Shown here: positions 58,241 through 64,000 of the stretch, one piece after another
Numbering within the stretch: the first letter of the stretch is position 1
Layout: each line of letters opens with the position of its first letter
Source: an uncultured Dehalococcoidia bacterium
GTDB lineage: Bacteria > Chloroflexota > Dehalococcoidia > Lucifugimonadales > UBA3495
NCBI GenBank assembly: GCA_951813535.1
Contig: OX638345.1
Coordinates: 3,774,608 to 3,838,607, forward strand
Direction: 5' to 3'
Length of the DNA stretch: 64,000 bases
Notes under the pieces: model-generated
The model's database searches: none
The model's input: the letters and a program-made list of their open reading frames with translations, nothing else
What the model was told of the DNA's origin: nothing
Translations under genes and position numbers: made by a program

Positions 58241-58639
58241 TCATCTTGCAGCATTTACGCATCGCAGGCCACCGGACCAGTCCAGGATGCGGCGGTCTGC
58301 GGTCACCAACTGGTGGCCGTTCATGGCCGTGGCGACGATGATGCGGTCGGCCGGGTCGGCGTGGAAATCGGGAAGTTCGTTGGCGCGTATGCCGATCTCG
58401 CCGTCCACGGGGATCTCGATCAGGCCCTGGCCCAACTGCTCCAGCCGCCATCGGCTCACGTCGTCGGGGTACTCGATGCGTCCCTTCTCCCGAAGCATCG
58501 CCATCTCCCAGAAGGACATCGCTGACACCGCGACTTCTTCGGCCTGCCAGGCTCGCTCAATCTCGGCGCGAGCCACCGGGCCCAGCCTGGCATCGCCGGC
58601 CCTCAGCCACAGGGCGGCGTGGGTGTCCAGCAGGATCAC
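58241..58639 (-). CDS. vapC: PIN-domain toxin (VapC family)
   Basis: 132 residues. VapC toxins are Mg-dependent RNases that cut tRNA or rRNA. The PIN acidic residues are visible: Asp in MILLDTHAALW, Glu in SAMSFWEMAML, Asp in ADPADRIIVATA and Asp in LVTADRRIL. The start is GTG 58639, overlapping the antitoxin stop (GTGA), a normal coupling in VapBC pairs. Intact. Confidence 0.9.
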   Translation of the reverse strand: MILLDTHAALWLRAGDARLGPVARAEIERAWQAEEVAVSAMSFWEMAMLREKGRIEYPDDVSRWRLEQLGQGLIEIPVDGEIGIRANELPDFHADPADRIIVATAMNGHQLVTADRRILDWSGGLRCVNAAR

Positions 58640-58917
58640 GGGTTGAGCACTCGGTCAGGGTCAGACTGGGCTTCCCACTCAACGTCGATGGGCGAGATGA
58701 TGTCGCCCGTGATTTTCAGGCGCCCCTTGTCGATGCCGAATAGGGACTTGGGGCGCTCGTGGTAGGCGGTCAGCTTGGCCACGGGCTTGCCGTTCTTGGT
58801 GATGACGATCTCGCCGCCGTGCTCGGCCACCTCGTCCATCAGCCCCAGGCACTTGGCCTTGAACTCGGATGCCTTCATCGTCCGGCTCTGGCCGGTGTCC
58901 CCGCCGTGAGTGGTCAT
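58636..58917 (-). CDS. Phd/YefM-type antitoxin partnered with VapC
   Basis: 93 residues from ATG 58917; an ATG at 58878 (MKASEFKAKCL) is the more usual family start and is equally possible. The DNA-binding region MKASEFKAKCLGLMDEVAEHGGEIVITKNGKPVAKL is typical of Phd/YefM, followed by a variable C-terminal toxin-binding tail. It overlaps the VapC start. It should repress its own operon. Confidence 0.88.
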   Translation of the reverse strand: MTTHGGDTGQSRTMKASEFKAKCLGLMDEVAEHGGEIVITKNGKPVAKLTAYHERPKSLFGIDKGRLKITGDIISPIDVEWEAQSDPDRVLNP

Positions 58918-59158
58918 GGTCAATGCTCCAATGGGTCGGGTGTGGCTGTCCTGGGCCAATTATACAGCGGTCATGACCATGGTCACCAATGCGGGACCCG
59001 AATCGGATTGCCAACGTGACCCGACCGCCACGATCGATGCAGGAGCTATGCTGGTATCCGCGGAGCAGATTAGTTATTGCACTCATTGTCCGGCGTCAAT
59101 AAAATTTGCCGACTTGTGGGCCATGCGCACAATACAAATGATGACCAAGGTTGTCCCT

Positions 59159-61076: not shown

Positions 61077-61543
61077 ATGATCGTAGCCGCCAACAAGCAT
61101 TCCAGCCACCAACACCCCCGGCCCCGCTCGGCCGCCGTGGTGAACGACATCGTATCGCAACTGAGAGGCCTGGGTTACCGGGACACCGAACCCCGCCGCC
61201 TCGTCATCAGCGCCATCGCCGCCCAGAGTCGGCCATTCACCGCAGCGGAACGCTGCGCGTCGCTGCCCTGCGTGGGCCGGGCCACCGTGTACCGGAGTTT
61301 GCGCCTGTTGGTGGAACCGGTCAGGCGTGTCGGGCTCTGCTGAAAGATCACGAACTGTGCTACCAGGTCAGCCAACAGGGGCGCCACCACCACCTGCTGT
61401 GCGCGGTATGCGGAGCGTCGGCGGACCCGGAGGGATGGCACGCAGAGGACATGCTCCGGGAAGCCGCTGCCGCCGCGGGCTTCCGAATGAGCGGCCATGG
61501 GCTGGAAGTGCACGGCCAATGCGGCGAATGCGTCGAGGACTGA
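61077..61543 (+). pseudogene. zur: Fur-family regulator, probably zinc-responsive (Zur), one-base frameshift
   Basis: The N-terminal winged helix reads from ATG 61077 (VSQLRGLGYRDTEPRRLVISA, then RATVYRSLRLLVE). At 61313-61316 the sequence GTGGAACCGG lacks one A relative to the expected VETGQ. The second frame then continues QACRALLKDHELCYQVSQ, GRHHHLLCAVCG (metal-sensing His cluster and first Cys pair) and GQCGECVED (second Cys pair) to 61543. With one base restored it would be a ~155-residue Fur protein. It lies 176 bases upstream of a zinc-binding lipoprotein gene on the same strand, hence Zur. The one-base loss could be a sequencing error. Confidence 0.7.
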
Positions 61544-61574
61544 TGGCTGGCGCATTTTATTTTTGCTCCCATAA

Positions 61575-61680
61575 TTGATACTTGATATCACTTGTCATCC
61601 ACGATTGAAGCCAAAGCCATGGTCGGAAAATAATCGATACAGCATATCAATACAAATGCTCATTGTTATGCCATGTCGAT
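61575..61680 (+). promoter_or_regulatory. AT-rich upstream region of the zinc lipoprotein gene with a candidate Zur site
   Basis: This is one of the few AT-rich stretches in the window. TTGATATCA (61582-61590) contains the perfect palindrome TGATATCA, preceded by TTGATA at 61575-61580. Further dyad-like TCGATA/TATCAA occurs at about 61632-61650. Plausible promoter and zinc-regulated operator; unproven. Confidence 0.35.
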
Positions 61681-61719: not shown

Positions 61720-64000
61720 ATGAACCCGCCTGTGCAACGACCCCTGCCCTATTCCAGAACCCTTCCGCTGCGGCCGGCCCTGGCGCTCCTCGCTGCGCTG
61801 GCGGCAATTGCGCTGCTGCTGACGGCCTGCGGGGGCGAAGAACCGGACCTCCCTCCGTCTGGTGATTCGCCCACCGCAGGTTCCGCGCCCCAAGTCGCGG
61901 CCGCGTCTTCCCCGCCGACTGCGGCTCCCGCGACTGCTGCCGTCCCCGCCGCTCCGACGGCCGGGTCGCCCCCGGCGTCTTCGGCAAACGAACCCGTGCA
62001 GACCGATCCCGTGAACGTAATAACCAGCAACGCCGTCCTCGCGGACCTCACGCGACAGGTGGGTGGCAATTTGGTGCAGGTGCACGCGCTGGTCTCAGCG
62101 GGCGTTGACGTCCACACGTGGCAGAGTACCCCCTCAGACAGTGTGCGCATAGCGGAGGCGGACCTAGTGGTCAGCAACGGGGCGGGCCTCGCCGTCCACA
62201 TCGAAGACCTGCTCGACAACAACGCGTCCGCCGACGCCATTCGAGTGGTCGCGTCGGAAGGACTGGAGCCTCTGGAGTTGGTCGAATTGCCCTTCCCTGA
62301 AGGCGACGACCACGCCATGGAACACGGGGACGAGCACGGGGCAGAACTCGCCGGCCGCTTGCTTGTCGGCGACGGCGAAACCGGCACCCTGTCCGTGATC
62401 GATCTGGAAACCGGCCACGTCCACCAGGACGAGTTCGACCTGGGTTCCCGCGCCGGCCGTATCTACCCCACCAAGAGCGGACGCTTTGTCGTCGCCGTTT
62501 CCAGCGACGCCAACGCGGTCAACGTCATCGACGGCGGCATGTACCTCGAAGAGCACGGCGACCACTTCGATATGGTCGAACGGGACGTCAGCCTCCTGGG
62601 GATCGACCTCGCGGGCGACCGCCCCGTTCACATGTACGTCGGCGGCGAGTGGGCCACCGTGTACTACGACGGCTCCGGCGACTTTGTCCTCATCAACGAG
62701 CACGAACTGGAAGAAGAGGGCTCCTCCTATGTGCCCATCACCATGAACGCAGGAGCCCAGCACGGCGCCGTCATACCCCTGGAAGACGACCTGTTCGCCG
62801 TCTCCCTTCAACACCCCAACTATGCCGATAACCCCGAGGAATACCGCCTGCCCATCGGCGCCGAAATCTGGGACCTCGACGGCAACGTCTTCCATAGCGC
62901 CCAGGGTTGCCCCGATCTCCACGGCGACGCCGGCAACGGGCACATGGCCGTCTTCGGCTGCACCGGCGGAGTCCTGATGGTCGAAGCCCACGACGGACAT
63001 TACGAGGATGCTTTCATTCCGGCTCCGGCAGGATCACCCGACGACTTCCGCCTCACCTCCGTTTGGGGATACTACGGCCTCGACCACTTCTTCGCCCTGG
63101 GTTCCGCAGTTGGCCTGTACGTCGTGGAGCCCGAAGAAGGCTCAATGGAGCAGTTGATCCCCGCCAGCGACGATCTTCGACCCATCCAGGTGGCGCTGAG
63201 CCACGACGGCGAACTGCTGCTGGTGGTCATGAGCGACGGCGAACTGCGCATGTACGAAGCGCATGACCTGGACCTCCTGGCGTCAACGTCGGACGCGCTG
63301 ACCGGTGAGATCGATCCCGGCTTCTGGGCACGGCCCCACATTGCCACCGCTCCCGATCACATCTTCGTCACCAACTCCGGCGAAGGCGAAGTCATCGCGC
63401 TCGACGCCCACGACCTGGAAGAAGTCGGGCACTGGGAAATTTCCGGCGCCCCCACCAAGATCGCCTTCGTCGGAATCCTGGGCGAGGGTGACCACGATGA
63501 AGAGGGACACGATGACCACGGCCACGGCCACGGCGCCGGTGACCCGCACTTCTGGCAGGATCCGCGCCTGGTGGTCCACTACGTGCAACAGATCACCAAC
63601 GCGCTGATCGAGACGGACCCGGACAACGCGGCAAACTACTTGGACAACTCGGCGGCGTACATTGAGGAACTGGAGGCGCTGGACGCCTACATCGCCGATA
63701 CTTTGTCGTCGATACCCGCGGACCGCCGCGTGATGGTGACCTTCCACGACGCCTTCGGATATTTCGGTGCGCGCTATGACATGGAGGTGCAGGCTTTCGT
63801 CGGCGGCCACGGCGGGGATGTTTCTCCTGACGACATCACCAACGTCCTGGAACTGGTGGTGGACAAGGGCTTGCCCGCCGTCTTTGCGGAGACCCAATTC
63901 TCCGATGATGCCCTCGAACAGGTTGCCCGGGACGCCGGCATCCAAGTCGGCATAGTCCGTTCGTTGCCCGACGACGAATTTCCGGATTACGTCGGCATGA
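61720..64000 (+). CDS. Zinc-binding lipoprotein: ZnuA/AztC-type receptor with an inserted AztD-like beta-propeller (3' end beyond window)
   Basis: One uninterrupted frame of 760 codons, running off the window. The ATG at 61720 has GGAG seven bases upstream. The lipoprotein signal ALLLTACGG (Cys 37) and an Ala/Pro tether (40-90) come first. Lobe 1 of a cluster A-I (ZnuA/AztC) receptor then reads VNVITSNAVLADLTRQVGG, with ligand His132 in GVDVHTWQSTPSD. The family's His-rich loop begins EGDDHAMEHGDEHG at ~195. A ~375-residue beta-propeller (212-587) resembling the zinc chaperone AztD follows (GTLSVIDLETG, GCPDLHGDAGNGHMAVFGC, HIFVTNSGEGEVIALDAHD). The loop resumes DHDEEGHDDHGHGHG (591-605), then lobe 2 with DPHFWQDP (His610), FHDAFGYFG (His676) and AETQFS (Glu724). 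Likely captures zinc for an ABC importer encoded downstream. Confidence 0.85.
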   Translation, partial: MNPPVQRPLPYSRTLPLRPALALLAALAAIALLLTACGGEEPDLPPSGDSPTAGSAPQVAAASSPPTAAPATAAVPAAPTAGSPPASSANEPVQTDPVNVITSNAVLADLTRQVGGNLVQVHALVSAGVDVHTWQSTPSDSVRIAEADLVVSNGAGLAVHIEDLLDNNASADAIRVVASEGLEPLELVELPFPEGDDHAMEHGDEHGAELAGRLLVGDGETGTLSVIDLETGHVHQDEFDLGSRAGRIYPTKSGRFVVAVSSDANAVNVIDGGMYLEEHGDHFDMVERDVSLLGIDLAGDRPVHMYVGGEWATVYYDGSGDFVLINEHELEEEGSSYVPITMNAGAQHGAVIPLEDDLFAVSLQHPNYADNPEEYRLPIGAEIWDLDGNVFHSAQGCPDLHGDAGNGHMAVFGCTGGVLMVEAHDGHYEDAFIPAPAGSPDDFRLTSVWGYYGLDHFFALGSAVGLYVVEPEEGSMEQLIPASDDLRPIQVALSHDGELLLVVMSDGELRMYEAHDLDLLASTSDALTGEIDPGFWARPHIATAPDHIFVTNSGEGEVIALDAHDLEEVGHWEISGAPTKIAFVGILGEGDHDEEGHDDHGHGHGAGDPHFWQDPRLVVHYVQQITNALIETDPDNAANYLDNSAAYIEELEALDAYIADTLSSIPADRRVMVTFHDAFGYFGARYDMEVQAFVGGHGGDVSPDDITNVLELVVDKGLPAVFAETQFSDDALEQVARDAGIQVGIVRSLPDDEFPDYVGM

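Follow-up and report, generated by a model that had tools for sequence, protein, structure and literature searches.

Can a bacterial zinc receptor carry its own zinc chaperone inside the loop with which it captures the metal? The question is raised by a gene at the 3' end of the window, by which we mean the whole 64,000-nucleotide stretch of DNA analyzed, from an uncultured marine Dehalococcoidia bacterium. The earlier note had read this gene, from the letters alone, as one continuous frame in which a receptor of the ZnuA/AztC type and a propeller of the AztD type form a single lipoprotein. The window ends inside the gene, and the full 773-codon frame was taken from the host genome (locus L007), which is complete as one contig of 4,377,943 bases. 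The frame is indeed unbroken from the ATG at 61720 to the end of the window at 64000, and its stop lies 41 bases further on. The features of the locus, with the evidence for each, are as follows.

61077–61543, plus strand: Fur/Zur-family regulator gene directly 5' of the fused gene, with a 1-base deletion after about 61314 in comparison to four relatives
61574–61592, plus strand: operator-like inverted repeat ATTGATACTTGATATCACT (genome-wide motif search)
61633–61651, plus strand: second operator-like inverted repeat ATCGATACAGCATATCAAT (genome-wide motif search)
Just 5' of 61720, plus strand: likely ribosome-binding site CAACGGAG (sequence)
61720–64000, plus strand: fused gene, 773 aa; last 13 codons and stop outside the window
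61720–61830, plus strand: lipoprotein signal peptide with lipobox LTAC (Cys37), then a Pro/Ala/Ser/Thr-rich linker (sequence)
62011–62280, plus strand: receptor lobe 1 (ZnuA/AztC N-lobe), ligand His132 at 62113 (profile match, alignment)
62296–62352, plus strand: first half of the His/Asp-rich D-loop, residues 193–211 (sequence; pLDDT <50)
62353–63474, plus strand: AztD-type propeller insert, residues 212–585, about 374 residues (profile, PDB and fold matches)
62554, 62563 and 62569, plus strand: insert site 2, His279, His282 and Asp284 (alignment to AztD)
62629, 62761 and 62920, plus strand: insert site 1, His304, His348 and His401 (alignment to AztD)
Within the insert, plus strand: disulfide Cys397-Cys414 (alignment to AztD)
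63475–63540, plus strand: second half of the His-rich D-loop, residues 586–607, with invariant His602 and His604 (alignment)
63541–64000, plus strand: receptor lobe 2 (C-lobe) with His610 (63547, DPHFW), His676 (63745, FHDAFGYF) and conserved Glu724 (AETQFS) (alignment)

The linker after the lipoprotein signal is of low complexity and precedes receptor lobe 1, and the first half of the D-loop is acidic and His-rich. As had been claimed, the propeller sits inside the His-rich capture loop: the insertion point is the loop that ends immediately ahead of DPHFW, whose His610 aligns with His138 of AztC, a protein in which the D-loop comprises residues 117–133 (PMC7463823). The limits first proposed for the insert, residues 212–587, were correct to within two residues. 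We thus confirmed that the window gene encodes a metal receptor of the ZnuA/AztC type with a complete AztD propeller in its D-loop.

The identity of the insert was examined with the whole protein and with the insert alone as query. In the whole-protein search, residues 216–584 matched positions 1–354 of the 356 in the NCBIfam AztD model (NF038015; E 2.6e-36). When the insert was searched alone, AztD was the sole family matched over its full length (E 4.5e-37); Pfam WD40 matches remained below their curated cut-offs, and a generic WD40 propeller was rejected. The best PDB relatives of the insert were both solved AztD proteins, 6ck1 (E 8.4e-30) and 6cmk (E 3.4e-26). Though full-length, the match scored 127.6 bits, below the curated AztD cut-off of 400, and judged by that cut-off the insert is a remote homologue of AztD and not a member of the family. 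A CPDLHG motif had been taken to mark the AztD zinc region; its His does align with the site-1 ligand His218 and its Cys with the conserved disulfide, but the site competent for transfer is site 2 (HGDHxD).

The two flanks of the insert were matched by Pfam PF01297 (ZnuA) as two stretches of one protein (E 1.4e-74), with the AztD match between them, bearing out the claim of receptor and chaperone in one lipoprotein. With 251 bits over both lobes against a curated cut-off of 29, the fused protein belongs, on this profile score, to the ZnuA receptor family. Searching the protein without its insert likewise returned ZnuA and AztC. AztC was the best NCBIfam receptor model, scoring 192 bits against a curated cut-off of 350 (NF040870, an equivalog), and by the NCBIfam standard the receptor part counts as AztC-like, not as AztC.

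Structure prediction, for which the model was built from an alignment of 31 fused proteins (mean pLDDT 82.7, pTM 0.57), placed an AztD propeller where the insert had been claimed. The predicted propeller superimposed on AztD of Paracoccus denitrificans (PdAztD; 6ck1) along 363 residues, with Z 43.5. The predicted receptor halves, about 380 residues apart in the chain, aligned jointly to holo AztC (Z 31.4, 267 residues), and Foldseek ranked AztD first for the model, with AztC as the first receptor. Segments with pLDDT <50 were limited to the N-terminus (model residues 1–4) and the two linkers (95–118 and 499–516). Both domains are therefore well predicted, and with this pTM and such linkers their mutual placement is unresolved in the model.

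An assembly chimera could in principle produce such a gene. Nothing in its favor was found and we give it no weight: the same complete single-contig host genome holds a second fused gene (757 aa), 0.69 Mb away, the single-contig genomes G646, G664 and G676 have the same architecture, and so do dozens of relatives. Among genomes of the same genus, a full-length AztD match was present in 10 of 13, with a fragment at a contig end in one more, and 49 distinct fused proteins could be aligned in all; the fusion is hence found in related genomes, as expected if it is real. A class-level sample had an AztD match in 34 of its 294 genomes. These comprised 40 places, 28 of them in open frames of ≥740 aa and the rest mostly 418–583 aa long and mostly separate AztD; both receptor lobes were verified only in those long frames that were fetched. 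Those relatives that carry a name are SAR202/Dehalococcoidia metagenome genomes, and two genomes from another class of the phylum Chloroflexota also carry the fusion. Distribution outside Chloroflexota was barely covered. In a plasmid set AztD occurred in 131 records, and the three inspected had separate genes; a separate aztD adjoins a separate receptor gene on Thermus and Klebsiella plasmids. In the SAR202 bin87 genome we noticed a fused gene interrupted by a frameshift close to the first half of the loop (L044:3821-6332; also G640, L161). The claim that no example had been described held for the open-access papers searched, among which no AztC/AztD fusion was found; that collection misses most subscription journals.

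Are the metal sites of both partners kept in the fusion? Zinc ligands known from the literature were mapped by alignment onto the window protein, and conservation was counted over the 49 fused proteins, all from Chloroflexota. The three-His cleft site of the receptor (His132, His610 and His676) was present in 49/49 fused proteins and in 43/43 receptor rows, and the D-loop residues His602 and His604 in 49/49. AztD site 2 (PdAztD His99, His102 and Asp104) was nearly invariant (His279, 49/49; His282, 48/49; Asp284, 49/49). A candidate fourth site-2 ligand of the window protein, His592 (compare the C-terminal His408 of PdAztD), is His in only 25/49. Site 1 (PdAztD His124, His167 and His218) was retained slightly less often (His304, 48/49; His348, 47/49; His401, 46/49) and is partly or wholly lost in three proteins. 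The disulfide cysteines Cys397 and Cys414 (PdAztD Cys214-Cys231) were found in all 49. Zinc transfer by AztD uses site 2 only (PMC6689063), and loss of site 1 with retention of site 2 agrees with this. One protein without any of the three site-1 His (L144, from G488) and another without two of them (L107) are natural controls for site-1 function.

These counts bear on what the propeller does. It might act as a store or antenna for zinc, loading the receptor through solution alone, or as a buffer for other partners, with no direct hand-over. The sites of PdAztD are labile, AztD accumulates periplasmic zinc and site 1 cannot transfer, and the loops add many low-affinity His/Asp sites, all of which would suit a store. 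Against this reading, the transfer site is kept in 48–49 of the 49 proteins, the losses affect the storage-like site instead, and the insertion falls exactly in the loop required for transfer; we regard it as unlikely, while still the strongest of the competing readings. It is also conceivable that cleavage of the linkers in the exported chain releases AztC and AztD as separate proteins, the arrangement known from Paracoccus. In its favor, the linkers are long, disordered and variable, but two cuts would also split the receptor in two, and the insert has been kept inside the loop in 49 proteins. We consider this barely credible.

Direct hand-over within one chain, the reading we prefer, also has to fit the surroundings of the gene. 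A Fur/Zur-family gene stands immediately upstream of the fused gene in the host and in relatives. The corresponding gene upstream of the host's paralogous fusion is intact (L008:6692-7159); the 1-base deletion in the window copy may be a sequencing error or mark a decaying copy. Between fur and the fused gene, the host and near relatives have palindromes of the type TTGATAC-N3-RTATCA, and five loci also have a similar site ahead of the fur gene. In the host genome there are 9 occurrences of the pattern TYGATACNNNNTATC, of which 5 fall in the two intergenic regions upstream of the fusions; its reversed control gave 0. A sixth occurrence lies just upstream of a COG0523/CobW gene (L173, G000:C1:1121341), a gene type linked to zinc homeostasis (PMC6689063). 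The common operator suggests a small zinc regulon in SAR202. As far as sequence evidence can go, zinc-responsive control of the fused gene is supported and not proven, the metal specificity of the regulator being inferred. On the reverse strand at 58241-58959 of the window, a gene pair resembles, by eye, a PIN-domain toxin and its antitoxin (VapC/Phd-like).

A partner importer was sought in the adjoining genes. None of the genes next to either fused copy in the host genome encodes an ATPase or permease; both copies stand alone behind a Fur-family gene, and the only ABC-3 permeases of the host, at 2.28 and 2.33 Mb, each lie beside an ordinary receptor. In three relatives (G140, G157 and G288), the fused gene adjoins or overlaps a gene for an ABC ATPase, with a permease gene after it, so that the expectation of an importer next door failed for the host and was met elsewhere. 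Typing of these partners in G140 and G157 showed that both permeases best match AztB; the ATPase of G157 best matches AztA, and that of G140 best matches MntA, with AztA fourth. The absence of a linked permease from both host copies would suit an orphan zinc-binding surface lipoprotein (a sensor, scavenger or adhesion factor) without a role in uptake. Yet the same architecture sits directly beside ATPase and permease genes in relatives, and all three receptor His ligands are kept. Two receptors on one importer are also a known arrangement, since AdcA and AdcAII share AdcCB (PMC8416893); by the same token, with no permease near the fusions, we infer that the host's fused receptors must share one. 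The orphan reading is improbable.

The metal could be manganese or iron instead of zinc. The receptor part has MntC and YfeA among its best matches by structure and by profile, some of the profiles hit being those of manganese receptors, and the AztC ligand Asp279 is not conserved: the aligned column lacks Asp in the window protein and in most fused relatives, which makes the choice of metal less certain. Against manganese or iron stand the three-His site, the His-rich loop and the AztD insert, all zinc features, as well as the operator common to the fusions and a COG0523 gene and the best match of the partner permease to AztB, and we hold this alternative to be quite improbable. Glu724 was considered as a fourth metal ligand and rejected, as alignment to AztC puts it at a different conserved position.

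How might such a protein work? In Paracoccus, direct transfer from AztD to AztC requires the D-loop of AztC and site 2 of AztD, and the two proteins associate slowly, in what is the rate-limiting step. In a docking model of that pair, the D-loop threads the propeller pore and site 2 enters the receptor cleft, where it lies about 10 Å from the destination. Optimal import in vivo requires both AztD and the D-loop (PMC7731109), and site 2 of PdAztD lies on an extension formed by the N- and C-terminal strands of the propeller and a hairpin. In the fusion, the ends of the propeller join the two halves of the D-loop, which should keep site 2 close to the entrance of the cleft. We observed the domains, their order, the insertion point, the conservation of both sites, the operon context in relatives and the common operator. 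Building on these, we think it likely that the protein is a single-chain receptor for zinc capture and hand-over, lipid-anchored, with the chaperone in its capture loop, transfer in cis, docking to an ABC importer and control by zinc shortage; zinc as the metal, the cis transfer and the choice of importer are inferred, and there are no biochemical data. The propeller would bind zinc outside the membrane, and zinc at site 2, beside the two linkers, would move to the receptor's three-His site without leaving the molecule. The loaded receptor would then dock on an ABC importer of the AztB/AztA type. The tether would replace the slow encounter of two proteins by a fast intramolecular step, and threading of the pore by a free loop would be either unneeded or done by the linkers. 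Zinc shortage would switch the gene on via the adjacent Fur/Zur-type repressor.

In comparison to AztABCD of P. denitrificans, the fusion has the same two folds, both AztD zinc sites and the D-loop as meeting point, together with control of the Zur type, which is inferred here, and, in relatives of the host, AztA/AztB-type partners. It differs in that AztC and AztD are separate periplasmic proteins in Paracoccus, whereas here AztD lies inside the loop of one lipid-anchored chain, in that it scores below the curated cut-offs for both AztC and AztD, and in the missing Asp279. The nearest precedent is AdcA of Streptococcus, a ZnuA domain with a C-terminal ZinT, which also combines a zinc receptor and a zinc-recruiting domain in one lipoprotein (PMC7858048, PMC6689063); its chaperone, however, has the unrelated ZinT fold and is attached end-to-end at the C-terminus via an 11-aa linker, not in a loop. 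The enterobacterial ZnuA/ZinT pair resembles the fusion in that the chaperone touches the His-rich loop of the receptor, but the two are separate proteins, the chaperone fold is another one, and transfer has not been demonstrated (PMC6689063). ZnuA-type receptors of Poseidoniales archaea (L050:5943-8588, L065:5787-8702, L067:992-3979) likewise have a big insert in the same His-rich loop, although these inserts are not AztD; they comprise about 580–680 His/Asp-rich residues with EF-hand matches (L050, L065) and represent another solution for that position. An Acidimicrobiia receptor (L066:6834-8570) has about 225 residues in the same loop, without a Pfam match and again not AztD.

Direct metal hand-over from one protein to another is hard to study: complexes like that of AztC and AztD are transient, and for their structure there is only a docking model. 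In a natural covalent fusion both partners are fixed at the disputed contact, the D-loop. The fusion also has a bearing on the docking model, in which a free loop threads the pore, whereas the loop halves of the fusion end at the termini of the propeller, next to site 2. With a stable single-chain complex, crystallization or imaging could become possible, transfer could be made first-order, and the fusion could be used for testing the passage of zinc between protein sites. That the disordered loop of a receptor accepts whole domains repeatedly offers a route to new uptake devices.

Did the insert descend together with its receptor? In a tree of the receptor lobes only, fused and unfused receptors were intermixed, and well-supported branches forced at least 8 gains or losses of the insert (6 without long-branch rows). 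That the fusion arose only once and was inherited vertically was rejected, as one fused receptor-lobe clade failed the AU test (p 5e-91; within the f3 genus, p 4e-4). In the genus g11, three inserts formed one clade (support 100/100; 82–86% identical), but the receptor lobes around them are of two paralog types, and both types are also found without an insert. G432 and G488 have window-type inserts (100/100) in receptor lobes closest to those of G140 and G066; the insert of G140 is of another AztD lineage, and the receptor of G066, in the same lobe group, has no insert. One AztD lineage per receptor lineage was rejected for G432 and G488 (AU p 4e-4 and 2e-5), although these test groups were named after the trees had been seen and the p values serve as guides. 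Insert and receptor lobes have, on these trees, different histories. Since the AztDs in sister receptors differ in lineage or are missing altogether, the cassette appears to have been exchanged or inserted more than once. The best account of these histories is exchange or repeated insertion via the repetitive loop sequence; direction and number of events are unsettled, and loss of the insert is not excluded. We lean, by no great measure, towards AztD being a portable zinc-transfer cassette that was repeatedly placed, by insertion or by paralog exchange across the His/Asp-coding loop, into the capture loops of different cluster A-I receptors in Chloroflexota, each of which would pass zinc in cis from site 2 to its own cleft. 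Separate AztD frames in two genomes (L032 and L086; G064 and G261) nest in the fused AztD clade and were possibly released by loss of the receptor lobes.
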